From assembly GCA_008501585.1 (NCBI GenBank), contig QQUN01000044.1, positions 1 through 60,747 of the forward strand: a stretch of DNA of 60,747 bases. The letters run 5' to 3'. Shown piece by piece: positions 1 to 17,301 of this stretch. Source of the stretch: Pseudomonadota bacterium (GTDB lineage: Bacteria; Pseudomonadota; Gammaproteobacteria; Burkholderiales; Rhodocyclaceae). Positions within the stretch are counted from its first letter, which is position 1, and each line of letters opens with the position of its first letter. Below the pieces are notes generated by a model that made no database searches, had not been told where the DNA came from, and was given only the letters and a program-made list of their open reading frames with translations. The translations under genes and the position numbers were made by a program.

Positions 1-254
1 ATCTTGGTGTCGGGGGCCAGGGCCAGCATTTCCTGCAGCAGCGCAAAGCCCTCGCCGACGCCATCGGGCTCGGGCGGCAGGCCGAGATCCATGGTCACCA
101 CGGGCGGCTCGTGACGGCGCAACTGCGCGATGGCGCTCTCCCGGTCACTGGCCAGGACGGTTTCAAAATCGCCAAACGCCCAGCGCATCTGCTTTTGCAG
201 CGCGGGGTCGTCTTCCACCACCATCAAGGTGCGTTGCTTCTCGGTCATGGTCAT
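1..254 (-). CDS. prsR: PrsR, PEP-CTERM system sigma-54 response regulator (N-terminal part)
   Basis: Only the first 84 codons are present; the gene runs off the left edge. The visible part is a receiver domain: an acidic cluster VVEDDP near residues 12-17 and the phospho-acceptor segment TMDLGLPPEP, typical of the response regulator paired with PrsK. In this family the missing part would be an AAA+ sigma-54 activator domain and a Fis-type helix-turn-helix. The ATG at 254 overlaps the prsK stop as ATGA, so translation of the two is probably coupled. The regulator is expected to act with RpoN on exopolysaccharide and PEP-CTERM protein genes. Confidence 0.88.
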   Translation of the reverse strand, partial: MTMTEKQRTLMVVEDDPALQKQMRWAFGDFETVLASDRESAIAQLRRHEPPVVTMDLGLPPEPDGVGEGFALLQEMLALAPDTK

Positions 255-2335
255 GAATCTGTGTGTGCGACGGCCGCCGCATCGCTGGCGGCCCGTTGTG
301 ACATCGGCAGCACGAGCTGCATGGTGGTGCCGACATCGGGCGTGCTCTCGACCCGGATGTCGCCGCCCAGCTCGCGCAGGTACTGTCGCGCCTCGAAGAC
401 GCCGATCCCCATGCCGCTGGCCTTGGTTGTCTGGAACGGTCGGAACAGCTGATCACGCATGAACTCGGGCGACATGCCGCATCCGGTATCCCTGACTTCG
501 ACCAGTGCGCGGGTGTCGTCGAGACGGCGAAGGCATGCCGTCACCATACCATCGTCCGCCGTCGCGTCGAGGGCATTTTGCACGATATGCCCCACCACGC
601 GTTCGAGCCGCTCGGCGTTGGCCTGCACCATGACGGGCGAGGCTTCGAGCACGACGGACACGGCCGGCTTGAGCTGTGCGCGCTGCTTACGGATACGCTC
701 GAGCAGCTGCCCCAGCTCCACCGGACGGTCTCGCTCGATGGCGGTCTTTTTCTGCAGCTGCTGCATCAGGTCTCGCATCTTCTGCTCGACATGCGCCACC
801 GTGTCGAGCATGTCGGCCTGAAAGTCCGGGTTGTCCTTGTGGCGTTCGGCGTTCTTCAGCATCAGCGACAGCTGGGCGACGAGGTTCTTCAAGTCGTGCA
901 CCACAAAGGCCGACATGCGATTGAAGGCGTCGAACTTGCGCGCCTCGATCAAGGCCTCGGCCGCCTGCATGCGCGCCAGGTAGCTCGCCGCCTGGCGCTG
1001 GGCGCTCTTGAGCAGGTCGAGCACCTCCCAGTTGATGTCGACCGGCGTCCGCGGCGCCAGCAGCACGACAAAGCCGATCAGCGTCTCGCCCGCGGTCAGC
1101 GGCACGACGAGCCAGGCATCCTCCATTTCCGACAACCACCGGGGCGGCGTGAGCTGACCGTAGGTCTTGGGTCGCATCCGGTACTCTTCCAGATTGAAGA
1201 CCCAGCCCTCCTCCGCCAGAAACCGGCATAGCGGGTCATCGGCCGACTCCTCGATCGTCGACTCCGGCATGTTCAGCCGCGCCCGCATCACGAAGCGCCC
1301 GTGGCCATCGTCCAGCCACAACCCGCCGCCGGCACTTTCCACCAGATCCGCCAGTGCACCGATGGTCGTCTGGCCAAGATCCTGATGATCGCCACTGGCC
1401 GACAGCGCGCGGGTGAACTTGAGCCACTCAATGCGGTAGTCGTAGCGATACGGAAACAGGTGCTTGTTGAGCCATACCCGCAGCCGCGCCCGTTGCGTTC
1501 CCGACACGGCCACCACACCCAGCAGCAGCAGCGCGGCAAAGAACAGGGTCACCTGCAGCGCCCGCCCCCAGTCGCCGCCGAAGTAGCGCACGTAGTAGCC
1601 CGCCGCGGCCACCAGCAGCAGGTACAGCCCCGAGGCGGCCAATGCGGTGGAATGAAAGACCATCTCGCGCGACACCGACAGGCGGATCGCCCATCCGGGC
1701 ACGCGGGAGGCCGAAATGGCGATCAGCGGCAACACCAGCGCGTGAGCCAGGCCACGGATGCTCCAGATATCGCGGTCGATGGCGCCAAACAGGAAGGCAT
1801 CGGCATACAGGTAGAGATCAAAGACCGCCGATGCGGCCATGGCCAGGCAGAAGGGCTTGAGCCCCCAGCGCGACTCCGAGGGCAGCAGCCGGTAGAGCTG
1901 CTCGACCAGCACCAGGGCATACACCGCCGCCACCAGATGCAGGAAGATCGCCGCGCGTTGCGGATCGACCGGCCAGGCCATGTCCAGCATGGCCATGAGC
2001 GCCGTGGCGACGCGCAAGGCCACCACCCCGACCGCCACGCGCAGGGGCCAGGTGCGCCGGCTACCGTCGATTTGCCGGATCAGGCCGACCACGAAGGCCA
2101 GCCAAGCGGCATCGCGCACCACCGACAGCACGTTCGCCAGCATGTCGGCATAGGCCAGGCCCGAGATCATCGCCGCACAGGCTACACACCAGAGTGCGCT
2201 GGCCCCCACGGCGACCAGCAAGCGCCCGCCCGCGCCCTTGCCGCGCCAGGCTGCCGCGAGATACACGCCGAACAGCCCGAACGCCGCGGCAGCCAGGACA
2301 TAGCCCCAGACGGCCACGCTCGTCAGTTCAACCAT
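251..2335 (-). CDS. prsK: PrsK, membrane histidine kinase of the XrtA/PEP-CTERM system
   Basis: 694 residues. The N-terminal ~300 residues are a run of hydrophobic segments (about eight membrane spans), followed by a GAF-like region (about 310-460). The transmitter has an H-box with FVVHDLKNLVAQ near residue 475, an N-box VGHIVQNALDA, and G-boxes DTGCGMSPEF and GMGIGVFEARQYL. This layout and length match the kinase that partners PrsR in exosortase-A genomes. It should autophosphorylate on the H-box His and pass the phosphate to PrsR, encoded immediately downstream with an ATGA overlap. It lies 47 nt after the sugar transferase gene, probably in the same transcript. Confidence 0.9.
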   Translation of the reverse strand: MVELTSVAVWGYVLAAAAFGLFGVYLAAAWRGKGAGGRLLVAVGASALWCVACAAMISGLAYADMLANVLSVVRDAAWLAFVVGLIRQIDGSRRTWPLRVAVGVVALRVATALMAMLDMAWPVDPQRAAIFLHLVAAVYALVLVEQLYRLLPSESRWGLKPFCLAMAASAVFDLYLYADAFLFGAIDRDIWSIRGLAHALVLPLIAISASRVPGWAIRLSVSREMVFHSTALAASGLYLLLVAAAGYYVRYFGGDWGRALQVTLFFAALLLLGVVAVSGTQRARLRVWLNKHLFPYRYDYRIEWLKFTRALSASGDHQDLGQTTIGALADLVESAGGGLWLDDGHGRFVMRARLNMPESTIEESADDPLCRFLAEEGWVFNLEEYRMRPKTYGQLTPPRWLSEMEDAWLVVPLTAGETLIGFVVLLAPRTPVDINWEVLDLLKSAQRQAASYLARMQAAEALIEARKFDAFNRMSAFVVHDLKNLVAQLSLMLKNAERHKDNPDFQADMLDTVAHVEQKMRDLMQQLQKKTAIERDRPVELGQLLERIRKQRAQLKPAVSVVLEASPVMVQANAERLERVVGHIVQNALDATADDGMVTACLRRLDDTRALVEVRDTGCGMSPEFMRDQLFRPFQTTKASGMGIGVFEARQYLRELGGDIRVESTPDVGTTMQLVLPMSQRAASDAAAVAHTDS

Positions 2336-2382: not shown

Positions 2383-3768
2383 TTACTGCGCACCCTCGCC
2401 GGTCAGCACCACGCGCACGGTTTCGGCCAGGACGACGATGTCCAGCAGCAGGGTGTGATTCTTGACGTAGTACAGATCGTACTGGAGTTTCTGCACGGCA
2501 TCATCCACGGAGGCGCCGTACTGGTAGCGCACCTGCGCCCAGCCGGTCACGCCCGGCTTGACGCAGTGGCGCACCGCATAGAAGGGGATTTCGGCGGTGA
2601 GCTGATCGACAAAGAACGGCCGCTCGGGCCGTGGCCCCACCAGGCTCATCTCGCCCATGAACACGTTGAACAGCTGCGGCAGTTCGTCGATGCGCAGCTT
2701 GCGGATGATGCGGCCGACACGGGTGACCCGGTTGTCGTTGGACTGCGCCCAGCGGGGCTTGCCGTCCTTCTCCGCGTCGGTCCCCATGCTGCGGAACTTG
2801 ATGACCTTGAACTGACGCCCGTTCTGGCCAACCCGCAACTGCCGGTAGAACACCGGCCCGCCGTCTTCGAGCAGGATGAGCAGTGCGGTCAGCAGCATCA
2901 CCGGCAAGGCCAGCACCAGCAGCACCAGCGAGGCGAGCAGGTCGAAGCAGCGCTTGACCAGGCTGCGCCAGAAGCCCTGGCGGAAACCGTCGCCGAAGAT
3001 CAACCAGCTGGCTTTCAGCGCATCGATGCGCACCTGGCCGCGCACGCGCTCGTAGAAGGTCGACAAGTCGTAGACCTTGACCCCGCGCATCTTGCAGTCG
3101 AGCAACTCGCGCAGCGGCAGCACGCCGCCGCGGCGCTCGCGCACGGCAACGATGACTTCATTCACGCCCAGTTCGTCGACCACGTCGACCACCGCACCGC
3201 GCTGGGTCAGGATCTGATCGGCGGCCACCGAGGGCGCGTCCTCATCGCCGGTGGGCAGGAAACCGACGAATTTCAGGCCACGGGCGTCCGGATCGCGCAG
3301 CACCCGCTCGACCGACTCCGCCTCGGCACCGGTGCCCAGCACCAGCACCCGCCGCGACAGGAGTGCGCCGAGGCGCCCACGATTGGCAAATCCGCGCATC
3401 AGCAAGATCAACCCCAGCAAGAGGATCACCGAGACTTCGACCGCTTCCGAAGCGAATTCGCCCCACGGAAGCACCCGGAACACGCCGTAGGCTACCGGAA
3501 TACTGACAACGATGCCGACCAGCACGCGCGCCACCACGTCCTTTGTCTGTCGCCCGGCCACCGGGCGATAGAAGCCGGTCAGCGTGTTCAGCACGATCAT
3601 GGCGATGGCAAAGAACAAGGCTGACGGCACAATCGTCCGCCAGTCCTCGATACCGACATCCGGCTGCAGCACGATCGCGACGACCACGCCGGCGAACAGC
3701 ACGATGGCGTCAAAAATGATCTGGTACAGCGTCGTGGCAGGAAAGTAGTGACTGAACACTTTGAGCAT
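2383..3768 (-). CDS. PEP-CTERM-associated undecaprenyl-phosphate sugar transferase
   Basis: 461 residues from the ATG at 3768, which has an AGGA Shine-Dalgarno 6 nt upstream; an in-frame ATG at 3789 lacks one. Membrane spans occupy residues ~10-110, a CoA-binding-like Rossmann stretch ([17 protein letters not shown]) is near 150, a further membrane helix ([16 protein letters not shown]) is near 275, and the C-terminal bacterial sugar transferase domain has [16 protein letters not shown] and GPRPERP. It is expected to move a sugar phosphate to undecaprenyl phosphate as the first step of exopolysaccharide repeat assembly at the inner membrane. Synteny with prsK-prsR supports the exosortase-associated subtype. 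It ends the EPS locus against the nir cluster. Confidence 0.9.
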
Positions 3769-3857
3769 GATTCGTCCTCGCCGGCCCATTGTGCGCCGAC
3801 ATGTCGCGACACGGGAACCAACCTGATATGGACGAACAATACCCGAGCGCGATTCTG

Positions 3858-3969: not shown

Positions 3970-5538
3970 TCAGTGACTCGTTCCCGACGAACGTGTGATT
4001 TTGTTGTGCAGATTGTACTTGCCGACCGGGCGCCGCGCGGGCAGGCGCTTGACCTCCTTGAGCGTGACGGCGTCATAGACGATCAGCGCGCCATCATCTT
4101 CCCACAGACTGGCCAGGGCATAGCGCCCGTCGCGGGTGAACTCGATGTGGGCCAGCGTCTTGCCGGGCTCGGGCGTCAGTTGGGCAACCACCTCCAGGCT
4201 GTCCTTGTCGATGACCTGCAAGGTATCGCGCGCCGTGGGGCTCATCATCGAGTCGGTCCAGGCATAGCGCGAGTTCTCGTGGCTGCGCATGAAGAAGCCC
4301 GGCCCGAGGGTCTTGATTTCCTTGACCACCGACCAGTCCTTGACGTCGATGACCGTGATCTTGCCCTCTTCGAGATTGGGTGAGGCCATGACGGTCCGTC
4401 CCCGCCACTCCCAGGTGATGCCGGAGCCCAGGTGCGGCATGCCGCCGAGGTCCAGATCCGCAATCTTCTTGCGCACATCGAGATGCACGACCTGGCCTTT
4501 CTTGTCGGCCCGGGTGGCCCCGATCAGCTCCGAGTAGTCCTGGGTAAAGAAGAAGTCGTCCAGTACATCGGCCAGCGGGGTGCGGCGCGGGTTGAGGTAG
4601 CCGCGGATGAAGGCGCCCTCCTTGTACTTGAAGTCGTGAATCAGCCCCACGGGGATGTCCTCGACGGTCGGGTCGTAGCTGATCTCCCACACCTCGGGCA
4701 CATCCTTGAGCGCCGCGACAAAGCTCTTGCGCGGCGCCGCGTCGTACACCGCGGACACCCGCGAGGACTGCTTGCCTTCCTTGTCGGTCACGTCCATCAC
4801 CTTGATCAGGTTCAGGTCGCCATCGAGCAGGACCAGCGAATGCGGCAGATAGTTGGCCACGGCCACCACGGCGCCGTCGGACGACACGGCCAGGTTGCGG
4901 GTGTTGATGCCGGCGCGCACTTCGGCCACCGGGGTGAGGTTCCAGATGTCGTACTTGGTGACCCAGCCGTCGCGCGAAGCGAAATACACGAAACGCCCAT
5001 CCGGGCTGAACTTGGGCCCGCCATGCAGCGCAAAGCGTGAGGGGAAGCGGTGGATGCGCTCGAGCTTGTCGCCATCGAGGATGGAGACATGATGGTCGCC
5101 CGCCTCGACCACGATGAACAGGTTCATCAGGTCGGCGTCAAACACCGGCTTGGCCGGCAAGGCCGCCACATCGGCATGAACGATGCGCGAGGCGTTGATC
5201 TGCTCGGCACCCCATGTCGGCGGCGTGGCCGTCGGCTGGTAGATCCAGGCCACCAGCGCGTCGATCTGCGCATCGTCCAGGGTGGTGCCAAAGGCCGGCA
5301 TCTGCGTGGCCGCCCGGCCATTGACCACCACCTCGCGCGCGGCCTTCTTGCGCAGGCGGGAGAGGTTGTCGGGCAGCAAGGCCGGCCCCATGGCGCCAAG
5401 CCGGTCCGCGCCATGACAGCTGGCGCAATGCTGGCCGAACAGGGTGGCGGCATCGGCGGGTGCGGGGGCGGCGGCCGAGGCATGGCTGACGAACAGCGAC
5501 ACCGCGAGCAGGATGGCAACGTGGATCAGTGTGTGCAT
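3970..5538 (-). CDS. nirN: NirN, c-type/d1 cytochrome, dihydro-heme d1 dehydrogenase
   Basis: 522 residues: signal peptide (1-~22), a cytochrome c domain with CASCH at 38-42, then a d1-type eight-bladed propeller ending in GKYNLHNKITRSSGTSH. The C-terminus separates it from NirS, whose tail is NTQHDIY. In the characterised pathway NirN is periplasmic and oxidises dihydro-heme d1 to heme d1 before insertion into NirS. It starts 7 nt after the nirJ stop, so the two form an operon. No U-rich terminator follows the gene. Confidence 0.92.
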   Translation of the reverse strand: MHTLIHVAILLAVSLFVSHASAAAPAPADAATLFGQHCASCHGADRLGAMGPALLPDNLSRLRKKAAREVVVNGRAATQMPAFGTTLDDAQIDALVAWIYQPTATPPTWGAEQINASRIVHADVAALPAKPVFDADLMNLFIVVEAGDHHVSILDGDKLERIHRFPSRFALHGGPKFSPDGRFVYFASRDGWVTKYDIWNLTPVAEVRAGINTRNLAVSSDGAVVAVANYLPHSLVLLDGDLNLIKVMDVTDKEGKQSSRVSAVYDAAPRKSFVAALKDVPEVWEISYDPTVEDIPVGLIHDFKYKEGAFIRGYLNPRRTPLADVLDDFFFTQDYSELIGATRADKKGQVVHLDVRKKIADLDLGGMPHLGSGITWEWRGRTVMASPNLEEGKITVIDVKDWSVVKEIKTLGPGFFMRSHENSRYAWTDSMMSPTARDTLQVIDKDSLEVVAQLTPEPGKTLAHIEFTRDGRYALASLWEDDGALIVYDAVTLKEVKRLPARRPVGKYNLHNKITRSSGTSH

Positions 5539-5545
5539 GGCAAAC

Positions 5546-6745
5546 TCAGGCGCGACGGCGCGCGAAAGGGGTCACGGTCAGGCGGGGGCGGATGGCCTCG
5601 TCCGGGTTGAGGCCGATCTCGGCGTCGTCCAGATAACAGGCGGGATCCTCTTCCCAGGCATCGCCGCTGGTCTGCTGGGCGCGCACGCGCGTGTTGCCGC
5701 CACAGATGTCGAAATGCGCACAGGCGCCGCAACGCCCCTTGACCTGACGCGGCCGCGCCTTGAGCCCGGCCATCAGCGGATCGGAGGTGTCCGACCAGAT
5801 CTCGGAGAACGGGCGCTTGCGCACGTTGCCGATGGTGTGGTGCCACCACATGGTGTCGGGGTGCACATTGCCGAGGTTGTCGATGTTGGCCACATTGACG
5901 CCGCTGGCGTTGCCGCCCCACTGCACCAGCTTGGCGCGGATGTGCTCGGCCTGGTCGGGGAAGCGGCGCGCCACCCACTGGTAGAAGTACACGCCGTCGG
6001 CATCGTTGTTGCCAGTGGTGAACTCGCGCACCCGGCCGGTTTTCAGGTCATCCAGACAGGTCTCGAAGAGCAGGTCCATGGCCCAGCGGGTGAGCTGGTG
6101 CTGGGCGTCGTCCTTGCGGTTCTTGTTGCCCCGGCCCGCGTAGTTCAGGTGCGAGAAGTAGAAGCGGTCGATACCCTCGTCGGCCACCAGTTGCAGCAAG
6201 GCGGGCAGGTCGGCGGCATTGTCCTGGGTCATGGTGAAGCGCACGCCCACCTTGAGCCCACGGTCGCGGCACAGCCGGATGCCGTCGAGCGAGGCCTCGA
6301 AGGCGCCCTTCATGCGGCGGAATTCATCGTGCGTCTCGCGGATACCGTCGAGGCTGACGCCGACATAGTCATAGTCGATCTCGGCGATCTGGTCGATATT
6401 GTCTTTGGTGATCAGCGTGCCGTTCGAGGACAGCGCGGTGTAGAACCCCATCGACTTCGCGCGGCGGGAGATCTCGAAGATGTCGGGCCGCAGCAGCGGC
6501 TCGCCGCCGGAGAGGATCAGCACCGGCACCCGGTAAGCCTTGAGGTTGTCCATCACCGAGAACACCTCCGGCGTATCGAGTTCGCCGGGAAAGTGGGTGT
6601 CGGCCGAGATCGAATAACAGTGCTTGCAGGTCAGATTGCAGCGCCGGATCAGGTTCCAGATCACCACCGGGCCGGGCAGGTCACGGCGGGGGCCCACGGC
6701 GGTGGGGTGCTCAAGTTCATGCATGTACTGCGACAGTCGGAACAT
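5546..6745 (-). CDS. nirJ: NirJ, radical SAM heme d1 biosynthesis protein
   Basis: 399 residues from the ATG at 6745; upstream in-frame codons run into the promoter. The radical SAM motif RRCNLTCKHCYS (CxxxCxxC) lies near residue 35, SGGEPLLRP follows, and the C-terminus has an extra cysteine cluster (RCGACAHFDICGG and DPACYL) of SPASM type for an auxiliary iron-sulfur cluster. NirJ removes propionate side chains and installs the oxo groups on didecarboxysiroheme in the cytoplasm. It leads the nirJ-nirN operon. A -10-like AAGAAT (6780-6775) is centred 32 nt downstream of the FNR box centre, the usual class II geometry. Confidence 0.94.
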   Translation of the reverse strand: MFRLSQYMHELEHPTAVGPRRDLPGPVVIWNLIRRCNLTCKHCYSISADTHFPGELDTPEVFSVMDNLKAYRVPVLILSGGEPLLRPDIFEISRRAKSMGFYTALSSNGTLITKDNIDQIAEIDYDYVGVSLDGIRETHDEFRRMKGAFEASLDGIRLCRDRGLKVGVRFTMTQDNAADLPALLQLVADEGIDRFYFSHLNYAGRGNKNRKDDAQHQLTRWAMDLLFETCLDDLKTGRVREFTTGNNDADGVYFYQWVARRFPDQAEHIRAKLVQWGGNASGVNVANIDNLGNVHPDTMWWHHTIGNVRKRPFSEIWSDTSDPLMAGLKARPRQVKGRCGACAHFDICGGNTRVRAQQTSGDAWEEDPACYLDDAEIGLNPDEAIRPRLTVTPFARRRA

Positions 6746-6802
6746 CGGTACGACTCCAGATTCGGGCTTCGGGCATTCTTGCCCGCCCCCCTGCCCCCCG
6801 CG

Positions 6803-6816
6803 TTGATTGCGGTCAA
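6803..6816. promoter_or_regulatory. FNR/Anr/Dnr box shared by nirJ and the HD-GYP gene
   Basis: TTGATTGCGGTCAA matches the TTGAT-N4-ATCAA consensus in nine of ten defined positions. For nirJ (minus strand) the centre at 6809.5 predicts transcription from about 6768, with AAGAAT as the -10, 23 nt before the ATG. Toward the plus strand TATTGG at 6836-6841 is a poorer -10, leaving about 50 nt before the ATG at 6900. Anaerobic or NO-responsive activation in at least the nirJ direction is likely. Confidence 0.8.
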
Positions 6817-6899
6817 CCGCATGGTCAGAAGCCGGTATTGGTGCTACCGTGCAAGCACTCCAACAAGACGCATTCGCAATACCGGACCCTCGCCCCACC

Positions 6900-8033
6900 A
6901 TGGACCCACGGCGTCTGTCGCCCATCGACCACATCGATCACGCCCTGCTCGACGCGTTCGTGCAGAACGCACTGCCGGACTTGCTCGAGCCGCTGCAGCG
7001 CAAGCTGATTGAACGCCTGCCGCACCCGTGCCGGCTGGCGGTCATCTGGCTTGATGACGACGGCACGCGCATCGCCGCAAGCATCGACTCGATGGGCCGG
7101 CGCAAGACGCCCGGCGACAACGACACCACCCATGTGGCCGACAGCCCCACCCTGCGCCAGTGCCTGGCCACGGGCTGCCTGCAGCGCATGCCGCCCCTGG
7201 GCGACCCGCTCATCCGCTGGGTGGCCGAAGACACCTGCGAGCCGCTGCTGTGCCTGCCGCTGACACGCAGCGGCGAGCCCTTGGGCGCCTTGCTCGTCAT
7301 GCAGCGCGCCGGGTTCGACACGCCGCCGGCCCGGCTCACCGAGCTGGCCTGCTGGGCGCCCTTGATGGCCGAGGTGCTGGTCCATGAGATCGACGCCATC
7401 CACGGCCTGTTCGGCGCCGTCCGCTTCGCCCGCGATTTCACCCTGATGCGCGACACCGAAACCGGCCAGCACCAGCTGCGCCTCGGCGGCTATGCCGGCC
7501 TGCTGGCCCAGGTGATGGGGCAGGCGCACGGGCTGGACGAGAGCTTCTCGCAGGAGATCGCGCTCTACGCCCCGCTGCATGACATCGGCAAGATCGGCAT
7601 CCCCGACGAGATCCTGCTCAAGCCGGGCAAGTTCGACGACGCCGAACGCGAGCGGATGAAGATGCATGTCACCAATGGCGCGGCGCTGATCGACCGGCTG
7701 GTGGAAGATTTCCGCCTCGAGCACAACCCGCGCATCAAGGCCTTGCGCGCGGTGGTGGCCTGGCACCATGAGTATCTCGACGGCAGCGGCTACCCTGAAG
7801 GGCGTGCCGGCGACGACATCCCCCTCGAAACACGGGTCATCACGGTATCGGACATCTTCGACGCACTGACCAATGTCCGCGCCTACAAGCAGCGCTGGTC
7901 ACTCGACGAAGCGTTCGATCTGCTCCGCTCGATGGCCGGCACGCAACTGGACAAGGAATGCGTGCTGGCCTTCATCAGCGAGCGCAAGCAGATCACCGAG
8001 ATCTGGCAGCACTACGCCGCCAACGGCGCGTAA
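6900..8033 (+). CDS. GAF-like/HD-GYP cyclic-di-GMP phosphodiesterase within the nir cluster
   Basis: 377 residues from the ATG at 6900. The frame stays open to a TTG at 6807 and a GTG at 6849, but both lie in or at the promoter. Residues ~1-160 look like a divergent sensory (GAF-type) domain. The C-terminal HD-GYP domain has ETGQHQLR (His ~191), HDIGKIGIPDEIL (~227), HHE (~289) and a canonical DGSGYP (~294-299), so the catalytic residues are intact. It should hydrolyse cyclic-di-GMP in the cytoplasm; there is no receiver domain or membrane span. It is the only plus-strand gene inside the nir block, divergent from nirJ and convergent with nirH, 154 nt from nirJ with an FNR box between. The start codon is uncertain because no strong ribosome-binding site is visible. 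Confidence 0.85.
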   Translation: MDPRRLSPIDHIDHALLDAFVQNALPDLLEPLQRKLIERLPHPCRLAVIWLDDDGTRIAASIDSMGRRKTPGDNDTTHVADSPTLRQCLATGCLQRMPPLGDPLIRWVAEDTCEPLLCLPLTRSGEPLGALLVMQRAGFDTPPARLTELACWAPLMAEVLVHEIDAIHGLFGAVRFARDFTLMRDTETGQHQLRLGGYAGLLAQVMGQAHGLDESFSQEIALYAPLHDIGKIGIPDEILLKPGKFDDAERERMKMHVTNGAALIDRLVEDFRLEHNPRIKALRAVVAWHHEYLDGSGYPEGRAGDDIPLETRVITVSDIFDALTNVRAYKQRWSLDEAFDLLRSMAGTQLDKECVLAFISERKQITEIWQHYAANGA

Positions 8034-8089
8034 TCCCGCGCCGGCCCACAGACCTCACGGCCCGGCGCCACCGAACACGCCAGGCGCGC

Positions 8090-8578
8090 TCAGCCGACCA
8101 GGCGCAAGCCGGTTTTCTTCAGGATTCTGGAACTGAACAACACATCGCGGGCACGCACGGCATCGCCGAGGCGCTGCGCGATCAGTTCGGCCTGTGCCAG
8201 CACCTCGTCGCGGTCATGGCCATGGACCATGGCAAACAGGTTGTAGGGCCAGTCGGGCAGGTGGCGCGGGCGCTGGTAGCAGTGCGTCACGCAGGGCATC
8301 TGCCCCACCGCTTCGCCGAGGGCGTCGATCTGCGCGTCGTCCACATCCCACACCGTCATGCCGTTGGCCACATAGCCCAGCGCATAGTGATTGGGCACCG
8401 CCCCGATGCGGCGGATGACGCCGCGTTCGAGCAGGCGCGCCATCCGGCGCTGCACCTCGGCCGCCGGCAACCCCAGCGTCTCGCCCAGCGCCTCGTACGG
8501 CCGGCTCACCAGCGGCAAGCCGCCTTGGGTGGCGACGATCAGCGCACGGTCAATGGCATCGATGGTTTCCATCGTCAT
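8090..8578 (-). CDS. nirH: NirH, siroheme decarboxylase subunit
   Basis: 162 residues. N-terminal winged helix of Lrp/AsnC type (DAIDRALIVATQGGLPL) followed by an AhbB-like half with HCYQRPRHLPDWPYNLFAMVHG, the CYxR/NLFxMxHG signature of the NirH/NirL branch. With NirG and NirDL it forms the siroheme decarboxylase that makes 12,18-didecarboxysiroheme. Its ATG overlaps the nirG stop (TGATG), so it is the last gene of the nirCFDLGH unit. NirH rather than NirL is assigned by position and by the separate L half in nirDL. Confidence 0.88.
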   Translation of the reverse strand: MTMETIDAIDRALIVATQGGLPLVSRPYEALGETLGLPAAEVQRRMARLLERGVIRRIGAVPNHYALGYVANGMTVWDVDDAQIDALGEAVGQMPCVTHCYQRPRHLPDWPYNLFAMVHGHDRDEVLAQAELIAQRLGDAVRARDVLFSSRILKKTGLRLVG

Positions 8579-9048
8579 CAGGCCTTGAGCTTCATTTCAA
8601 CAAAGTACTCCTTCAACTTCGGGAAGGGGTACACCGGCAAACCGGTATCGGCTTCGATCCGGGCCACGGCGGCATCGATGCCGCCCGGTGTTTCCGTCGC
8701 CAGCACGAACCACATGTTGAAGGCATGCTCCCGACGATAGTTGTGCGCCACTTCCGGCAAGGCATTGACCTGGGCATTGACCACGTCGAACTGCGCCTCC
8801 GGCACCGCCATGGCGGCCAGCACGAAACGCCCGCCCATGCGCTCGACCTGGAACATCGGGCCGAAGCGGGTCAGCACGCGGGTGTCGAGCATCGCGCGCA
8901 GGCGATCGAGCAGCGCCGACTCGCTGATGCCCAGCGTCGCGGCGACATCGGCATACGGCGTGTCGGTCAGCGGAAAGCCCCCTTGCAGGGCGTTGATGAT
9001 CTGCCGGTCCAGATCGGACAGCGTCACCGGTGCCTGGCGCTCAGTCAT
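8578..9048 (-). CDS. nirG: NirG, siroheme decarboxylase subunit
   Basis: 156 residues from the ATG at 9048, which overlaps the end of nirDL by 8 nt; the frame stays open further upstream only inside nirDL. Lrp-type helix-turn-helix (SDLDRQIINALQGGFPLTD) and the AhbA-like motif HNYRREHAFNMWFVLA, the same class as the NirD half of NirDL. Expected partner: NirH. Together they decarboxylate the acetate side chains of siroheme in the cytoplasm. Confidence 0.88.
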   Translation of the reverse strand: MTERQAPVTLSDLDRQIINALQGGFPLTDTPYADVAATLGISESALLDRLRAMLDTRVLTRFGPMFQVERMGGRFVLAAMAVPEAQFDVVNAQVNALPEVAHNYRREHAFNMWFVLATETPGGIDAAVARIEADTGLPVYPFPKLKEYFVEMKLKA

Positions 9049-10078
9049 TGCGCGCCGGGTCCGCGGCATAGCGCGCACCACACTGCTTGAAACGCTGGGT
9101 GGAAAACAGCACTTCGGCCGGGAACGGCGCCAGCCCGCACTGCGCCACAATGGTCGCCAGCTGTGCGCGCACCGCCGCCTGGTCATGGCCGTGGATCATG
9201 CAATACAGGTTGAAGGGCCAGGCCTCGGCACGCGCCCGGCGATAGCACAGGTTCACCCCGTCGGCCGCCGCGAGGCGCTCGCCCAGCGCGTCGACCTGGT
9301 CGTCCGGCACATTCCAGACACACATCGCATTCGCCCGGTAGCCCAGCTCATGGTGGCGCACCACCACGCCGAAACGCTTGACGATGCCGCGGGCGATCCA
9401 GTCGCGCACCGTGGCGAGCACCACCGACTCGCTCACCCCGGCGCTGTTGCCCACACTGGCAAACGGCCGGCTCACCAGCGGCAGCCCGGCCTGCAACACC
9501 TGCATCACCGCCACCTCGGTGTCGGTCAGCACTTCGGGCTCGACCGGGCCGTAGCTCACCTGCGTGGGGGTCCGCCCCTTGCCGGCCAGATCGAAGCCGA
9601 GGTCGATGTGGTATTCCACCCGCAGCGGCAGGGCGATCACCGGGCACCCCGTCTCGCGACGGATCTCGCGCAGCACCCGCGCCAGCGCCACGGCGTCGGG
9701 CGCGGCCACGACGAACCACAGGTTCCACTCGTGCTCGCGTGCGTAATTGTGGTTGATCTCCGGGTGCGCGCTGACCACGGCGGCGATGTCGTCGAGGTGA
9801 TCCGGCGGCGCCTTCAGCGCAGCCAGGGTGCTCGCGCCAATGCGTCGCGGCGAAAACACCGGCCCCACGCGGCTGACCGTACCGCCCTCGCGCAGACCGG
9901 TCAGCCGGGACAGCACGCCGGCCTCGGTCACGCCCAGATCCGCCGCAATCCGCGCAAACGGACGGGTCACCAGGGGAAAGTCGCGCTGGAAGTCGTTCAG
10001 CAAACGAAAGTCCGCTTCGTCGGAAAACACCGGCTTGAGTCTCATCATCGGCGCACGGGCATCGAGCAGCATGGTCAT
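9041..10078 (-). CDS. nirDL: NirDL, fused siroheme decarboxylase
   Basis: 345 residues, about twice the size of NirG or NirH. The first half (to ~165) has HNYAREHEWNLWFVVA (NirD type). The second half (from ~185) has CYRRARAEAWPFNLYCMIHG (NirL type). Each half begins with an Lrp-like winged helix (DFQRDFPLVTRPF and VLQAGLPLVSRPF). The fusion ties the A- and B-type subunits of the decarboxylase into one chain; it is known from several denitrifiers. It begins 3 nt after the nirF stop. ATGs at 10078 and 10072 are both possible starts. Confidence 0.92.
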   Translation of the reverse strand: MTMLLDARAPMMRLKPVFSDEADFRLLNDFQRDFPLVTRPFARIAADLGVTEAGVLSRLTGLREGGTVSRVGPVFSPRRIGASTLAALKAPPDHLDDIAAVVSAHPEINHNYAREHEWNLWFVVAAPDAVALARVLREIRRETGCPVIALPLRVEYHIDLGFDLAGKGRTPTQVSYGPVEPEVLTDTEVAVMQVLQAGLPLVSRPFASVGNSAGVSESVVLATVRDWIARGIVKRFGVVVRHHELGYRANAMCVWNVPDDQVDALGERLAAADGVNLCYRRARAEAWPFNLYCMIHGHDQAAVRAQLATIVAQCGLAPFPAEVLFSTQRFKQCGARYAADPARND

Positions 10079-10081
10079 CCC

Positions 10082-11257
10082 TCAGAATCCAATCCGCGCA
10101 GCCCGGTGGCTAAAGAAAATGCCCGACGGCGCAGTCGCCGGCAGCGTCTGGCGCACCTCAAAGCTGGCGGTATCGAACACCGTCACCTTGTTGTCGTCGC
10201 GCGCCGACACCCACACCTCGTCACCGCGGGGGGTGAATTCCATGTGCAGCACCGCCTTGCCCGGCGCCAGCGTCTTGACCACCTCGCGCGTGGGGGTGTC
10301 GATCACCTGCACCCAGCCGTTGTCGGGGAAGGCGAAGTTCACCCACACCTGGCGGCCATCCGGCCGGGCCATCACGAACACCGGCTGCCCCTTGACCGCC
10401 ACCCGGGCGGCCTCGGTCCATGTCCGCGTATCGACCACCAGCACCTCGTGGCGACCGATGGCCGGCAAGAACGCAAACCCGCCCGCCATGGCCCAGCCGC
10501 GCAGATGCGGCATCTTGTAGACCGGCAGCTTCTCCTCGCCGCGGCCGTAGCCATCGAGAATCTTGCGCACGCCCTTCTCGGGATGCCACAGATCGAGCAG
10601 CGCGATGCCATCCTCGCCAAACAGGCCGGCCATGAAATAGCGCCCGTCCGGGGTGACCAGGCCATCATAGGGTTGCTTGCCCGCCGGGTAACGGGTGGTC
10701 TTGGGCTGCCTGGGGTCGGTGAAATCGGTCACCCAGATCTCACCCGCCTCGAACAGCGCATAGACAAATTTCTGCCCCGGCACATCGGCCAGGCCCACCA
10801 CCTTGGAAAACTGGCCCGGCGCATACTCGGCCGGCACTTCGGAGACGAGTTCGAGCGTCTCGGCGTCAAAGGCCTTGATGCCGCCGGGCTGGTAGTTCTG
10901 CGCCACCACCAGGCGACCGTCCTGCGAGACCGAGCCGCCAATCGAGTTGCCGGCCTGGATCACGCGCTTGACGATGCGCTGGGTCAGCAGGTCGACCTTG
11001 GTCAGCCCGCCATCGCGGCCAAACACGAAGGCATAGCGCGCATCGCGCGAGTACGTGACATGGGCATGCGACAGGTCACCCAGCCCGGGCACCGAGCCCA
11101 GGCTCGTCCGGCCGCTGTGCTCAACCACCTGCACCGCCCCGGTCGCGCGTTCGATCACCACGCCCATGTCGCCTGTCCCCCGCAACGCCGGCGTCTGGGC
11201 ACACCCCGCCAGCAATCCGAGCGACAACACCCCCGCTCCCAGCATCCGACCCATCAT
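10082..11257 (-). CDS. nirF: NirF, d1-type propeller lipoprotein of heme d1 synthesis
   Basis: 391 residues from the ATG at 11257, which overlaps the nirC stop as ATGA. A lipoprotein signal peptide ends in GLLAGC (Cys ~17), so the mature protein should be anchored on the periplasmic side. The rest is a propeller related to the NirS/NirN d1 domains (YSRDARYAFVFGRDGG, HMEFTPRGDEVWVSARDDNK) with no c-type heme motif. NirF binds late heme d1 intermediates and is essential for the pathway in model denitrifiers. It lies between nirC and nirDL in one transcription unit. Confidence 0.93.
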   Translation of the reverse strand: MMGRMLGAGVLSLGLLAGCAQTPALRGTGDMGVVIERATGAVQVVEHSGRTSLGSVPGLGDLSHAHVTYSRDARYAFVFGRDGGLTKVDLLTQRIVKRVIQAGNSIGGSVSQDGRLVVAQNYQPGGIKAFDAETLELVSEVPAEYAPGQFSKVVGLADVPGQKFVYALFEAGEIWVTDFTDPRQPKTTRYPAGKQPYDGLVTPDGRYFMAGLFGEDGIALLDLWHPEKGVRKILDGYGRGEEKLPVYKMPHLRGWAMAGGFAFLPAIGRHEVLVVDTRTWTEAARVAVKGQPVFVMARPDGRQVWVNFAFPDNGWVQVIDTPTREVVKTLAPGKAVLHMEFTPRGDEVWVSARDDNKVTVFDTASFEVRQTLPATAPSGIFFSHRAARIGF

Positions 11258-11616
11258 TTCGACGACTCCAACTGTTGCGCCACGGGCGGAAAGCCCTGCA
11301 TCAGGCGCGCGACAATCCATTCGGCTTCCTGCTCGCTCATGAACGGCGCCCAGCCCGGCATGGCCGTGCCCGGGCGCCCCATCATCACCGTCGCCACCAG
11401 CGACTCGGCCGGCTTGTCTTTGAGCACCGCCGGCAGCAGCGCCGGCCCGAGGCCGCCCTGCAGCGTCAGGCCATGACAGGACCCACAGTCCTGCCGCACC
11501 ATGTTGACGAGTTCCTGCTGCCGCGCGGTGGCCGGCTCGGCATGCGCCGTCGCCGCCACGGCAGCGACGCCCAGCAGCACGACTACATGAACCCAAAGGG
11601 ATCGATCGACGGCCAT
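11254..11616 (-). CDS. nirC: NirC, periplasmic mono-heme cytochrome c
   Basis: 120 residues from the ATG at 11616, preceded by a strong GAGGAGG 5 nt upstream; the frame extends to 11643 without such a site. Signal peptide through AATAHA, then one heme motif CGSCH (C44, C47, H48) and a distal Met region (GTAMPGW). NirC is a small cytochrome c55x that can donate electrons to NirS and may take part in heme d1 maturation. First gene of nirCFDLGH, under its own FNR-type promoter. Confidence 0.92.
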   Translation of the reverse strand: MAVDRSLWVHVVVLLGVAAVAATAHAEPATARQQELVNMVRQDCGSCHGLTLQGGLGPALLPAVLKDKPAESLVATVMMGRPGTAMPGWAPFMSEQEAEWIVARLMQGFPPVAQQLESSK

Positions 11617-11643
11617 CACAGCCTCCTCGCTTGCAATGCCCAC

Positions 11644-11685
11644 ACATTAGGGGAAGCCTGCGGGGGAGCCCTTGACAGTTGTCAA
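11644..11685 (-). promoter_or_regulatory. FNR/Anr/Dnr-dependent promoter of nirCFDLGH
   Basis: The box TTGACAGTTGTCAA at 11672-11685 is a perfect palindrome of TTGAC-N4-GTCAA type. On the minus strand a -10 hexamer TAATGT (11649-11644) is centred 32 nt downstream of the box centre, exactly the class II activator layout. Predicted start about 11637, giving a ~20-nt leader to the nirC ATG. This separates nirC from the nirSTB transcript, which ends at the terminator just upstream. Confidence 0.85.
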
Positions 11686-11736
11686 AGCCCACACCTTTGG
11701 CGGGGACATCGCGCGGCAGCGGCGCGCCAGTCGACG

Positions 11737-11760
11737 AAAAAGGGCGCCCGCAGGCGCCCT
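11737..11760 (-). terminator. Rho-independent terminator after nirB
   Basis: Stem AGGGCGCC / GGCGCCCT (8 bp, loop CGCA) at 11741-11760. On the minus strand it is followed by a T-run (plus-strand A-run from 11737). It lies 22 nt past the nirB stop and closes nirSTB. Confidence 0.85.
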
Positions 11761-11782
11761 CGTGCCACATGCCAACCGCCAG

Positions 11783-12658
11783 TTACTGCTTGGCAGCGAC
11801 GATATCCGCCTTGGCATCGATGCCCAGGGTATAGCCCATGGACACCTGGTGGAAACGGCCCTTGGCATGGTCGTCATGCACCGCGAAGCCGAAGTTGTAG
11901 GTCTTGCCCGTGGCCAGGGCGATGTCGCCCTCGCCGCCACCGGCGAGCTTGCGGGTGAACACCACGGTCCAGGTGTCGCCGTCTTTCTTGCCCTCGGCAC
12001 TGACCAGCCCCTTGCCGCCGTCCATGACGCGCTTGTCAGCCACGTAGCCGTCATGGGCCTCGCCCTTGCCGCTGCGCCACTGGATCAGGTCGTAGTACTT
12101 GCCGCTGGCCAGGTCGCCGCCTTTGACATACTTGGTTTTCTTGTCATCGGCGCCCGGCATGGTACGTGCGTCGCCATGGCAGGTTTCCCAGCAGCCGGAC
12201 TGATCGGCCCGCTCGACCTTGTTGGCTTCGAGCATGACCGCGAGCTTGACCTGGTTGTCGGCATCCATCTTGGCGGCGCCGGAGGCTTTCGGCTCTTTCC
12301 AGCTGAAACGCAGGTAGAGGTTCTCGCCGTCATGCGCTGCCTGGACGTTGACCGGGATGGCCGCAGCCTTGCCGGCGATCGGGGTCGGCTCGATCTTGCT
12401 GCCGCTGGCCATTTTCTGCCCCATGTCGGCCAGCTCTTCCTCGTGGCAGCCAACACAGGTCTCGCCTTTCTTCAGCAGACGGGCACCGCCGTGGTCGCTG
12501 CCCTTGGTGATCCACTCGATGGGCGACACGCCCGGGTAGAACACGGTGATTTTCTTGGCGGCGACCTTGCTCCAGTCAGCCGGCGCAGCGGCGCTGGCAG
12601 CGCCGGTGCCCAAGGCCAGCATGGCGCCCAGTGCGATTGCGGAAAACTTGATGCTCAT
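11783..12658 (-). CDS. nirB: NirB-like diheme cytochrome c-552
   Basis: 291 residues from the ATG at 12658 (AGGGGA 7 nt upstream; the open frame to 12724 has no such site). Signal peptide through GAASA. First heme site CVGCH (68-72). A second site reads GCWETCH, with three residues between the cysteines (C156, C160, H161), i.e. CxxxCH. The C-terminal half resembles the cytochrome c-552/ethylbenzene dehydrogenase heme-binding fold. By sequence type and position after nirT it corresponds to NirB of Pseudomonas stutzeri, a periplasmic electron carrier for nitrite respiration. Closed by the terminator downstream. Confidence 0.82.
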   Translation of the reverse strand: MSIKFSAIALGAMLALGTGAASAAAPADWSKVAAKKITVFYPGVSPIEWITKGSDHGGARLLKKGETCVGCHEEELADMGQKMASGSKIEPTPIAGKAAAIPVNVQAAHDGENLYLRFSWKEPKASGAAKMDADNQVKLAVMLEANKVERADQSGCWETCHGDARTMPGADDKKTKYVKGGDLASGKYYDLIQWRSGKGEAHDGYVADKRVMDGGKGLVSAEGKKDGDTWTVVFTRKLAGGGEGDIALATGKTYNFGFAVHDDHAKGRFHQVSMGYTLGIDAKADIVAAKQ

Positions 12659-12713
12659 GTTGTGTCCCCTGTAGGTCATTGGGTTTGCTGCATGGTCGGC
12701 GGTTGCCCGCCAA

Positions 12714-13322
12714 TCAACCTTCATCTTCTTCAGTCATGCCTTCGGGCTTGTTATGTGCAATCCCCTTGTGGCAGTCGATGCAGGTCATGTTGTCTTCGAT
12801 GGCGAACGTGTGGCTCTTCTGCGCACGCTTGGCCTGCGCTTCCGGGTTCATGCCATCGAAGCTGTGACAGTTGCGGCACTCGCGCGAGTCAGAGGCTTTC
12901 ATCCGTGCCCACTCGTTGCGCGCCAGACGCAGGCGATGCTCTTCGAATTTTTCCTTGGTGTCGATGGTGCCCATGATCTTGCCCCACACTTCCTTGGAGG
13001 CCTGGATCTTGCGGATCATCTTGTGCGTCCAGTCCTTGGGCACATGACAGTCGGAGCACACGGCACGGACGCCGGTGCGGTTCGAGTAGTGGATCGTCTG
13101 CTTGTATTCCTGATACACGTTGTCCTTCATCTCGTGGCACGAGATGCAGAACTCCAGCGTGTTGGTCGCTTCCATTCCGGTGTTGAAACCGCCCCAGAAA
13201 AGGATGCCCGAAACGAAGCCGACGACGAGGAGGGTCAGCAGCGAATACTTGGCACTCGGACGGCGCAAGCTCGCCAGAAAGCCTGTCTTCCGCTCCGCAT
13301 TCTCGTTGGATTGATCCGTCAT
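12714..13322 (-). CDS. nirT: NirT, NapC-type membrane tetraheme cytochrome c
   Basis: 202 residues: one N-terminal membrane anchor (~27-48) and four heme motifs CISCH (59), CSDCH (89), CRNCH (149) and CIDCH (181), the NapC/NirT pattern. It takes electrons from the quinol pool and passes them to periplasmic acceptors, here probably NirB/NirC and NirS. AAGGA lies 6 nt before the ATG. It sits between nirS and nirB in one unit, with a hairpin in the nirS-nirT gap. The charged C-terminal tail (GMTEEDEG) is unremarkable. Confidence 0.92.
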   Translation of the reverse strand: MTDQSNENAERKTGFLASLRRPSAKYSLLTLLVVGFVSGILFWGGFNTGMEATNTLEFCISCHEMKDNVYQEYKQTIHYSNRTGVRAVCSDCHVPKDWTHKMIRKIQASKEVWGKIMGTIDTKEKFEEHRLRLARNEWARMKASDSRECRNCHSFDGMNPEAQAKRAQKSHTFAIEDNMTCIDCHKGIAHNKPEGMTEEDEG

Positions 13323-13430: not shown

Positions 13431-15101
13431 TTAGTAGATGTCGTGCTGCGTGTTGTACAGGTTGAACTTGCCGGTCGGGGTGATCATCTTCGGATCGGTG
13501 ATCACTTTCTTGACCTTCAGCGTCGCGTCGTCATACACCACGATCGCGGACTGGTCGGTCTTGCCGCCCCACAGCGAGATCCACACTTCGGTACCGTCAG
13601 CCGAGTATTCCGGATGCACGGCACGCTTGATGGCCTTGGTTTCCGGCAGGCCGGAGTCCTTGGCAACGTTCAGCATGACCGGCGGCTTGGACAGGTCGGC
13701 GATCGAATACACGGCAACCGATTCAGCCAGGGACTTTTCCGGGTTCTGCGGCGCGTCAGCCCACAGGTGCTTGGACTTCGGGTGGGTCTTGACGAACAGG
13801 TTGCCGGCACCAACGTGCTTGACTTCCTGAACCACCTTCCAGGCGTTGTCCTTGTGCTTCTCCGGATCGGTACCGATCAGGGTGATCACGTCGGCGCCCA
13901 GGTGACCGGTGGTCCACACGGGGCCGTAGGTCGGATGCACGAAGTTGGCGCCACGGCCCGGGTGCGGGATCTTGGCGGTGTCGACCAGCGCGGCCAGCTT
14001 GCGATCCACGGTGTCGACCACGGCGATCTTGTTGGAGGCGTTGGCGGCCACCAGGAAGTAACGCTGAGTGGAATCCCAGCCGCCGTCGTGCAGGAACTTG
14101 GCGGACTCGAAGGTGGTTTCCTTCAGGTTCTTCAGGTCGGAGTAGTCAACCAGACGGATCTGGCCGGTTTCCTTGATGTTGATAACCCATTCCGGCTTGG
14201 TCTGCGAGGCCACGATGGAGGCCACGCGCGGCTCGGGGTGGTACTCGCCATCGACGGTCATGCCGCGGGTGCTGACGATCTTGAGCGGCTCGAGCGTCGC
14301 GCCGTCCATGATCGAGTACTGCGGCGGCCAGTAACCACCGGCCACGGCGTACTTGTCCTCGAAGCCCTTGAACTTGGAGGTATCGACCGAGCGAGCGTCG
14401 AAGGCCACCTTGACTTCGGCAACCACGGCGGGCTTCTCGAGCCACAGGTCGATCAGCGACAGACGACCGTCGCGGCCGATCACGTACACATAGCGGCCCG
14501 ATGCCGAGATACGCGAAATGTGCACCGCGTAGCCGGTCTTGACGATGCTGACGATCTCCTTGGTGTCGCCGTCGATCAGCGCCACTTCACCGGTATCACG
14601 CAGGGTGACCGAGAAGATGTTCTTCAGGTTGATCTTGTTCATCTGCTTGGTCGGACGCTTGTCGACCGGCAGCATGACCTTCCAGGTTTCCTTCATCTCG
14701 GCCATCGAGAACTCGGGCGGAACGTCCGGCGTGTTCTGGATGTAGCGAGCCATCAGGTTGATTTCATCCTTGGTCAGGATGTCGTCGAAGTTCACCATGC
14801 CGCCTTCGGTACCGTAGGCGATGATCTTCTCAAGACGGTTCTGACCCAGCTTCAGCGTACCGCCTTCCAGCTTGGAGCCGTCCTTCAGGGTCTTTTCCCA
14901 GTGCGGCTCGAGGTTCTTGCCGGTTGCGCCTTTACGCAGCACACCGTGACAGCCAGCGCAGCGCTCGAAGTAGATTTTTTTGGCGGTTGCCTTTTCGGCA
15001 TCCGTCATGCTCGGTGCATCAGCTGCAAAGGCACTGCTGATGGCCAACGGCATTGCCGCCATCGCCAGCGCGCTCGCCAGCCAGGTTCCACGGGTCTTCA
15101 T
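13431..15101 (-). CDS. nirS: NirS, cytochrome cd1 nitrite reductase
   Basis: 556 residues from the ATG at 15101 (GGGAG 8 nt upstream). Signal peptide through ISSAFA, heme c motif CAGCHG (C48, C51, H52), then the d1 propeller, including RISASGRYVYVIGRDG and HPEYSADGTEVWIS, ending in GKFNLYNTQHDIY. It is the periplasmic homodimeric enzyme reducing nitrite to nitric oxide. Heme d1 comes from the nirE/DL/G/H/J/F/N products in this window. Transcribed ahead of nirT and nirB, with an FNR-type box 82 nt upstream. Local codon use is slightly less GC-extreme than its neighbours, as often seen in highly expressed genes. Confidence 0.97.
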   Translation of the reverse strand: MKTRGTWLASALAMAAMPLAISSAFAADAPSMTDAEKATAKKIYFERCAGCHGVLRKGATGKNLEPHWEKTLKDGSKLEGGTLKLGQNRLEKIIAYGTEGGMVNFDDILTKDEINLMARYIQNTPDVPPEFSMAEMKETWKVMLPVDKRPTKQMNKINLKNIFSVTLRDTGEVALIDGDTKEIVSIVKTGYAVHISRISASGRYVYVIGRDGRLSLIDLWLEKPAVVAEVKVAFDARSVDTSKFKGFEDKYAVAGGYWPPQYSIMDGATLEPLKIVSTRGMTVDGEYHPEPRVASIVASQTKPEWVINIKETGQIRLVDYSDLKNLKETTFESAKFLHDGGWDSTQRYFLVAANASNKIAVVDTVDRKLAALVDTAKIPHPGRGANFVHPTYGPVWTTGHLGADVITLIGTDPEKHKDNAWKVVQEVKHVGAGNLFVKTHPKSKHLWADAPQNPEKSLAESVAVYSIADLSKPPVMLNVAKDSGLPETKAIKRAVHPEYSADGTEVWISLWGGKTDQSAIVVYDDATLKVKKVITDPKMITPTGKFNLYNTQHDIY

Positions 15102-15182
15102 GCTCGGTCTCCCTTTTAAGAAAACGCAGTTGCGGGTCATTCCGCTGGAGACGAAGGTTGAACCTCGCGAACCGCTGCGTCT

Positions 15183-17197: not shown

Positions 17198-17301
17198 GAC
17201 GCACATCTCCGCTGGATTCTGTCGGGGCCGCTGCCGCTGTACTTGGCAAGGCCGTCAGGTGACAGATAAGATTCGGGGCTTTTTCGCCCGCGATGAAGCG
17301 C

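Follow-up and report, generated by a model that had tools for sequence, protein, structure and literature searches.

A gene for a GAF-HD-GYP protein, a probable cyclic di-GMP (c-di-GMP) phosphodiesterase, is embedded among the nir genes for heme d1 and cytochrome cd1 in a 60,747-nucleotide stretch of a Rhodocyclaceae genome (contig QQUN01000044.1 of assembly GCA_008501585.1; this entire stretch is hereafter called the window). We conclude, with moderate confidence, that the nir cluster moved in around a resident HD-GYP gene, and that the FNR-type box located between this gene and nirJ belongs to nirJ. Under this scenario, the GAF-HD-GYP gene would originally have been located beside an alpha/beta-hydrolase gene and, in Denitromonas, next to the PEP-CTERM exopolysaccharide genes prsK and epsB. 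The nir genes would have moved to this site in a common ancestor of eight members of this genus, out of 10 analyzed, with nirJ-nirN placed on one side of the HD-GYP gene and nirH to nirS on the other side. The FNR-type box would be the activating site of nirJ itself; having traveled with that gene, it would now happen to adjoin the HD-GYP promoter. The encoded protein most likely lowers c-di-GMP inside the cell, perhaps depending on a ligand or partner recognized by its GAF-like domain. By changing c-di-GMP levels, it might affect exopolysaccharide or motility. Positions 6746-8089, singled out in a preliminary description of this DNA, are the full nirJ-nirH interval, which is larger than the HD-GYP gene itself.

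The 10 Denitromonas genomes that were searched for the HD-GYP gene and nirJ all contain both, and the HD-GYP genes are 66-93% identical. Eight of these genomes share the gene order prsK-epsB-nirN-nirJ-HD-GYP-nirH, in which nirJ and the HD-GYP gene are divergently oriented and separated by about 150 bp; hence, the insertion is not unique to one strain, a point that the preliminary description had left to be checked. In the remaining two genomes, G002 and G008, the HD-GYP gene is located between epsB/prsK and an alpha/beta-hydrolase gene, and nirJ lies 438 kb and 546 kb away from it, respectively. A single box between two divergent genes makes for a tempting regulatory link, which can be tested with genomes where the neighbors are apart. 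The genus offers a natural before-and-after pair, with the HD-GYP gene at the exopolysaccharide locus in two members and the nir genes around it in eight, so that one can ask whether c-di-GMP turnover became anaerobically controlled once the gene lay beside a nir promoter.

Outside the genus, 297 genomes of the family were searched, and the best matches to the HD-GYP protein came from 8 places in genera g82 and g27 (44-46% identity, nearly full length), with three weaker relatives (39-42% identity) in genera g58, g60, and g62. At six of the 8 g82/g27 places, the relative has the same alpha/beta hydrolase as its convergent neighbor; in the other two, either kup lies in between (L136) or the locus is near a contig end and the hydrolase was not found (L133). 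The hydrolase was not found beside the three weaker relatives either, and no nir genes were matched in the 10-15 kb fetched around the 11 outside HD-GYP loci. Homologs of the window hydrolase adjoin the HD-GYP gene in G002, G008, and six loci of genus g82. As for other neighbors, an HDOD-domain gene (L134:6087-6962) immediately precedes the HD-GYP relative in G090 (genus g82) and, as judged by eye, apparently also in G161, and kup is adjacent to the relative in G161 (L136, by profile) and G191 (L133, by eye).

The eight nir-linked HD-GYP genes form one clade in the HD-GYP tree (support 100/95). Because the HD-GYP-hydrolase pair spans genera, whereas the interrupted form is found only in this eight-genome clade, we infer that the nir genes moved in once. 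Given that the pair without nir is common to G002, G008, and the six g82 loci, the nir-interrupted form appears to be derived, and the HD-GYP gene was probably tied to the exopolysaccharide locus and the hydrolase gene before the nir genes arrived. The converse order of events, with the window layout as the starting state of the genus and loss of nir at this site from G002 and G008, which kept the HD-GYP gene and carry nir elsewhere, seems distinctly unlikely. It accords with the HD-GYP tree, where G002, G008, and the eight-genome clade form a three-way fork, and with the location of cobA beside nirS in G002, as in the window. However, it requires two deletions, one on each side of the HD-GYP gene, and is at odds both with the shared nir-free pair and with outgroup loci. 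Among 17 outgroup prsK loci, epsB is beside the hydrolase in L083, the order is epsB-cobA-hydrolase in L092, and epsB is followed by cobA in L095, with no nir genes between epsB, cobA, and the hydrolase in these three; in the other 14, neither the hydrolase nor cobA was matched. Thus, cobA adjoins epsB in two outgroup genera (L092 and L095), with no nir genes in the fetched stretch, and the cobA gene of the window may mark the entry point of the nir block.

The FNR-type box was found where the preliminary description had placed it, between the HD-GYP gene and nirJ, and is identical in all 8 genomes with the nirJ-HD-GYP layout. Boxes were scored at up to one or up to two mismatches against the consensus TTGAT-N4-ATCAA. 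A scan of the window at up to one mismatch yielded 3 matches where 0.51 would be expected by chance; as many were reached in 3 of 100 shuffles, so these statistics are weak for one box alone; the box is judged to be real because of its identity in the eight genomes, which is better evidence. In the window, 71 bp separate the nirJ start from the far edge of the box, and the nine other genomes of the genus have the box at the same place upstream of nirJ, within 1 bp. In particular, in G002 and G008, the box starts at -72 of nirJ, with the HD-GYP gene far away. The box center is 64-65 bp upstream of nirJ in all ten genomes; these include the 8 other genus members in which nirJ is not directly behind nirH, and G002, where nirJ directly follows nirH and the box still starts at -72. 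Conversely, no box with up to one mismatch was detected upstream of the HD-GYP gene in 480 bp of G002 or 330 bp of G008; the poorer boxes there are at -381 (three mismatches) and -329 (two) in G002, and at -244 (two) in G008. Local alignments of the nirJ upstream regions of G002 and G008 with those of four reference genomes extend to the box edge or a little beyond it, between -71 and -84, in 6 of 8 cases. In G002 and G008, nirJ keeps its box while the distant HD-GYP gene has none close by; from these comparisons, the box appears to go with nirJ rather than with the HD-GYP gene, contrary to the shared box of the preliminary description.

This association extends across the family. A nirJ match was present in 178 genomes, and from these, outside the genus, 67 nirJ neighborhoods were read, one of which was too short; genome G123, represented by loci L064 and L231, was counted once, without L231. 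For nirJ genes located apart from nirH, a box with up to two mismatches was present within 150 bp in 39 of 48, and one with up to one mismatch in 28 of the same 48; 27 of the 39 boxes are centered 61-66 bp upstream. Directly behind nirH, nirJ had a box in 7 of 18 cases (up to two mismatches) or 3 of 18 (up to one). Shuffled nirJ upstream stretches contained a box with up to one mismatch in 3 of 2400 cases. In a sample from the class (60 nirJ neighborhoods fetched out of 65 listed besides the window, 59 of them usable and one too short), boxes with up to two mismatches were found at 1 of 6 nirJ genes apart from nirH and at 5 of 53 behind nirH, and none of the 59 had a box with up to one mismatch. 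Because the box is this rare in the class sample, the rule that couples it with nirJ belongs to the family, not to the class. The genome contains 9 matches to Crp/Fnr-type helix-turn-helix domains, possibly including the regulator that binds the box. A second FNR-type box (TTGACTCCAATCAA, one mismatch) is located at 15183-15196, between nirS and cobA.

The spacing of putative promoter elements differs between the two sides of the box. Class II activation was taken to place the box center about 41.5 bp upstream of the transcript start, that is, 32 bp from the -10 hexamer; in the available portion of PMC3688515, 19 of 23 FNR-activated Escherichia coli promoters with a known start have the site within 4 nt of -41.5. 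On the nirJ side, the hexamer AAGAAT (four of six positions shared with TATAAT) lies exactly 32 bp from the box center in all 8 genomes with the layout, and GACAAT is found by eye at 32 bp in G008 and 33 bp in G002. The predicted spacing toward nirJ is, therefore, that of class II geometry, with the site at -41.5. On the HD-GYP side, the element TANCGT lies 38 bp from the box center in six genomes, 37 bp in one, and 36 bp in one; if it is the -10 element, the box would be centered at -47.5 in the six, -46.5 in G007, and -45.5 in G005, with its edge 3-5 bp from a possible -35 element. In G002, where the HD-GYP gene has no box, the ten-base word TGCTACCGTG is found almost equally far from its start. 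The HD-GYP gene is most likely transcribed from a promoter of its own rather than by class II activation from the box.

According to the preliminary description, one box could serve both directions, such that FNR/Dnr turns on nirJ and the HD-GYP gene at low oxygen or in the presence of nitric oxide (NO), lowering c-di-GMP. The near-symmetry of the box, its identity in the eight genomes, and its closeness to the possible -35 element of the HD-GYP gene are compatible with this possibility, as are the persistence of the layout in eight genus members, the divergent arrangement of an HD-GYP gene and a boxed nirJ in two other genera, and the candidate regulators among the Crp/Fnr-type matches of the genome. 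Nevertheless, we consider it unlikely: the class II fit is to nirJ, with the HD-GYP side at about -47.5 in 6 of 8 genomes; in G002 and G008, the box and the HD-GYP gene are apart, and the latter has no other box close to it; and outside the genus, an HD-GYP gene is present in just 2 of 65 family nirJ neighborhoods. Shared anaerobic control of the two genes thus appears to be the less probable outcome. An effect of the opposite sign, in which the regulator bound at the box represses or displaces the HD-GYP promoter, so that c-di-GMP hydrolysis drops as denitrification begins, is highly unlikely in our assessment. The estimated box center, -45.5 to -47.5 from the candidate HD-GYP start, would fit this model, given that the available portion of PMC3688515 lists E. 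coli ndh, which is repressed by FNR, with a site at -50.5, and that a site just upstream of -35 can repress. However, that position is an estimate, and nirJ is sufficient to account for where the box lies.

In the survey of nir clusters that the preliminary description called for, an HD-GYP gene was located within 2.5 kb upstream of nirJ in 2 of 65 usable family neighborhoods, of 67 outside the genus (L055 and L078), and in none of the 59 usable class neighborhoods. Both of these HD-GYP genes occupy the nirH-nirJ gap and are divergent from nirJ, which has a box. Finding at least two among 65 has a probability of 0.012-0.042 if HD-GYP genes are assumed to account for 0.25-0.5% of all genes, a rough guide only, as the genomes are related. 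In the HD-GYP tree, the gene of G061 (L078) groups with that of G033, and the gene of G082 (L055) groups with those of G200 and G243; no nir genes were matched in the 12-15 kb fetched around the HD-GYP loci of G033, G200, and G243. Because the L055 and L078 genes are separated from the window clade and from each other in the tree, three separate origins of the nirH-HD-GYP-nirJ neighborhood are likely. A single ancient nirH-HD-GYP-nirJ operon was considered and rejected, given that the G061 and G082 genes belong to other HD-GYP lineages and that none of the 59 class neighborhoods shows an HD-GYP gene at this position. We regard as unlikely a bolder proposition, namely that on at least three independent occasions (in Denitromonas, G061, and G082), an HD-GYP gene, each time of a different lineage, was placed beside the FNR/Dnr-type promoter of nirJ and thereby tied the start of denitrification to a change in c-di-GMP. 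If true, genome rearrangement would have repeatedly coupled NO-forming respiration with the release of biofilms.

Tentatively, the HD-GYP genes might instead be chance arrivals, without regulatory meaning, at an insertion-tolerant nirH-nirJ joint, which is a possible explanation that is compatible with relocation of the nir genes, so that the two overlap in probability. With a promoter of its own, nirJ may make the joint tolerant of insertions. Three other genomes of the family have a gene for a kup-type potassium transporter between nirJ and nirH, on the nirJ strand, in L042 (8078-9982) and L059 (4412-6310), both by profile, and, by eye, in L065, and several genes occupy the joint in G008; of the 59 usable nirJ genes in the class sample, 53 stand directly behind nirH. 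However, two HD-GYP genes in 65 neighborhoods exceed the rough expectation of 0.25-0.5% per neighbor, and eight genomes kept the HD-GYP gene. Other signaling-type genes also adjoin boxed nirJ genes in other genera, divergent in L048 and L063, and upstream on the nirJ strand in L046 and L062; judged by eye from the translations, these encode response regulators with kinase-like parts and sensor-type proteins.

Several observations weigh against relocation of the nir genes combined with a box that belongs to nirJ. The fork at which G002, G008, and the eight-genome clade meet in the HD-GYP tree is open, and the direction of relocation rests on parsimony. Two of the eight local alignments upstream of nirJ stop at -14. 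On the HD-GYP side, the consensus promoter scan listed no promoter on either strand and the candidate is weak; homology with G002 upstream of the gene reaches only -1 to -3 by local alignment, beyond which the two share only the ten-base word, and alignment with G008 gave nothing above the shuffled maximum. With no scan match and no upstream homology beyond -3, the HD-GYP promoter is, accordingly, a candidate only. In G005, the box at -45.5 lies within 4 nt of -41.5, so activation of the HD-GYP gene would be possible. Finally, two other genera have HD-GYP genes from different lineages in this gap, somewhat more than the rough chance estimate.

The open frame on the plus strand spans positions 6807 to 8033, and the conserved start is the ATG at 6900. 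As the preliminary description held, the gene is intact: the HD domain of the protein matches Pfam HD_5 (PF13487) with an E-value of 2.6e-29 and 102.6 bits (curated cut-off, 27.2), although the match of the GAF-like N-terminus to GAF_2 (PF13185; E-value 3.3e-4) falls short of the curated cut-off, at 21.3 bits against 28.6. Eight metal-ligand positions (E187, H191, H227, D228, H256, H289, H290, and D318), the conserved lysine K231, and the GYP motif (G297-Y298-P299) are all retained in the 10 genus proteins; the roles of the metal ligands, the HD pair, and the lysine were taken from the available part of PMC4159591. The 11 nearest relatives outside the genus also keep all of these residues, except for E187 (E in eight, D in one, other residues in two). 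The ratio of nonsynonymous to synonymous substitution rates (dN/dS) of the HD-GYP gene is 0.04-0.33 in 12 pairs, so the protein evolves under purifying selection; that of NirJ is 0.009-0.19, and lower than that of the HD-GYP gene in each of the same pairs. The protein is most likely a c-di-GMP phosphodiesterase, as far as can be judged from its sequence. Its gene is nothing out of the ordinary within a known enzyme family, but its location is unusual and has a readable history. The genome contains 10 HD-GYP matches, and a scan of the named collection with the protein returned two loci only. The possibility that this is a plasmid gene was rejected: the 59 plasmid records matched at E-values up to 1e-30 all show less than 60% identity, and the top-ranked one has 34% over 93%.

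A structural model predicted from three aligned sequences has a mean predicted local distance difference test score (pLDDT) of 55.3, with a block at residues 31-160 that has pLDDT 70-89; because the HD-GYP half of the model is poor, the N-terminal part alone was used. A Foldseek search with this low-confidence model ranked 4mcw first (E-value 8e-10), with GAF structures among the matches. A heme-based GAF gas sensor is expected to keep an axial ligand, such as histidine, in the GAF part. Across the 10 genus proteins, no histidine, methionine, or tyrosine is invariant in residues 1-175; of His, Cys, Met, Tyr, and Trp residues, only W50, W107, C118, and W152 are. This pattern does not point to a classic heme gas sensor in the GAF-like part.

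The surrounding genes are summarized in the table below. The heme d1/cytochrome cd1 cluster, identified by profiles, runs on the minus strand from nirS down to nirN, and, in agreement with the preliminary description, the HD-GYP gene is the sole plus-strand gene among those assigned between these two. On the far side of nirN, prsK and the TIGR03013 glycosyltransferase gene stand side by side, as in a PEP-CTERM exopolysaccharide locus. In G001, prsK (L032:4957-7039) matches in two overlapping pieces and aligns to the family model only up to position 536, which suggests a frameshift in the gene or in the assembly. The stretch of G002 that was fetched contains no match to the NirT-type cytochrome or the ethylbenzene-dehydrogenase-type heme protein of the window (11783-13322), and nirS is 59% identical to that of the window in G002 and 51% identical over a 110-residue piece in G008. 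For these reasons, members of the genus may have exchanged nirS, but not nirJ.

Features of the window around the HD-GYP gene, with the evidence for each assignment
Feature	Coordinates	Strand	Evidence
prsK, XrtA/PEP-CTERM histidine kinase	251..2335	-	TIGR02916, 852 bits (cut-off 300)
epsB-type XrtA/PEP-CTERM glycosyltransferase	2383..3789	-	TIGR03013, 532 bits (cut-off 393)
nirN-type cytochrome c/d1 protein	3970..5538	-	PF02239, E 1.1e-105
nirJ, heme d1 radical SAM protein	5546..6745	-	equivalog TIGR04051, 635 bits (cut-off 515)
Candidate -10 hexamer AAGAAT of nirJ	6775..6780	-	32 bp from box center, inferred
FNR/Dnr-type box TTGATTGCGGTCAA, assigned to nirJ	6803..6816		1 mismatch from consensus
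Weak candidate promoter of HD-GYP gene, TGGTCA-N17-TACCGT	6822..6850	+	below consensus-scan threshold
GAF-HD-GYP protein, 377 aa, probable c-di-GMP phosphodiesterase (E-T-G group)	6900..8033	+	HD_5, 4mcw, metal ligands
nirH-type siroheme decarboxylase	8090..8578	-	NF040707, 174 bits (cut-off 125)
nirG-type siroheme decarboxylase (start uncertain)	8578..9186	-	NF040708, 105 bits (under cut-off 140)
nirDL-type fused siroheme decarboxylase	9041..10078	-	NF040707 and NF040708, both above cut-off
nirF-type d1 beta-propeller (start approximate)	10082..11250	-	PF02239, E 2.8e-111; open frame 10082-11770
nirC-type cytochrome c	11254..11643	-	PF13442, E 1e-10
Ethylbenzene-dehydrogenase-type heme protein, in nir cluster	11783..12724	-	PF09459, E 3.8e-43
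NapC/NirT-type cytochrome c	12714..13322	-	TIGR02161, 312.4 bits (cut-off 310.6)
nirS-type cytochrome cd1 nitrite reductase	13431..15140	-	PF02239, E 1e-147, and cytochrome c domain
cobA/nirE-type uroporphyrinogen-III methyltransferase	15256..16197	+	TIGR01469, 316 bits (cut-off 185)
Alpha/beta hydrolase	16247..17206	-	PF07859, E 5.2e-69

The literature that was searched, whose coverage leaves out most subscription journals, contained no report of an HD-GYP gene with nirJ and none on c-di-GMP in Denitromonas; in the portions available, papers on HD-GYP proteins, denitrification, c-di-GMP, and nirS mention no such cluster. Among solved structures, the best relative by sequence is PmGH, the c-di-GMP phosphodiesterase of Persephonella marina (4mcw; E-value 2.1e-33, window protein residues 180-361). 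The two proteins share the GAF-helix-HD-GYP order, the E-T-G signature, and all eight metal-ligand positions but differ in the sequence of the GAF part, the comparison being made by sequence and with the low-confidence model. A known case that connects NO with an HD-GYP protein is NosR of Burkholderia pseudomallei, described in the available part of PMC12570481 as the HD-GYP output of the NO-sensing NosP-NosK system, acting by phosphotransfer. Like the window protein, NosR is an HD-GYP protein; it is tied to NO biology, and its family model NF053512 matches residues 183-365 of the window protein. Assignment of the latter as a NosR-type NO response regulator was rejected, as the match scores 82.8 bits against a cut-off of 400 and no receiver domain was matched. 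The nir clusters of G061 and G082 resemble that of the window in having a divergent HD-GYP gene in the same gap and a boxed nirJ, but these HD-GYP genes are of other lineages. At the level of gene neighborhood, the site also resembles PEP-CTERM/EpsH loci: prsK and the TIGR03013 glycosyltransferase gene flank the site in the window, and in G002, prsK is followed by a prsR homolog (TIGR02915, 751 bits; cut-off 503). Unlike the PEP-CTERM/EpsH layout, the window has nirN-nirJ between prsK/epsB and the HD-GYP gene, whose product might act on the PEP-CTERM exopolysaccharide system.

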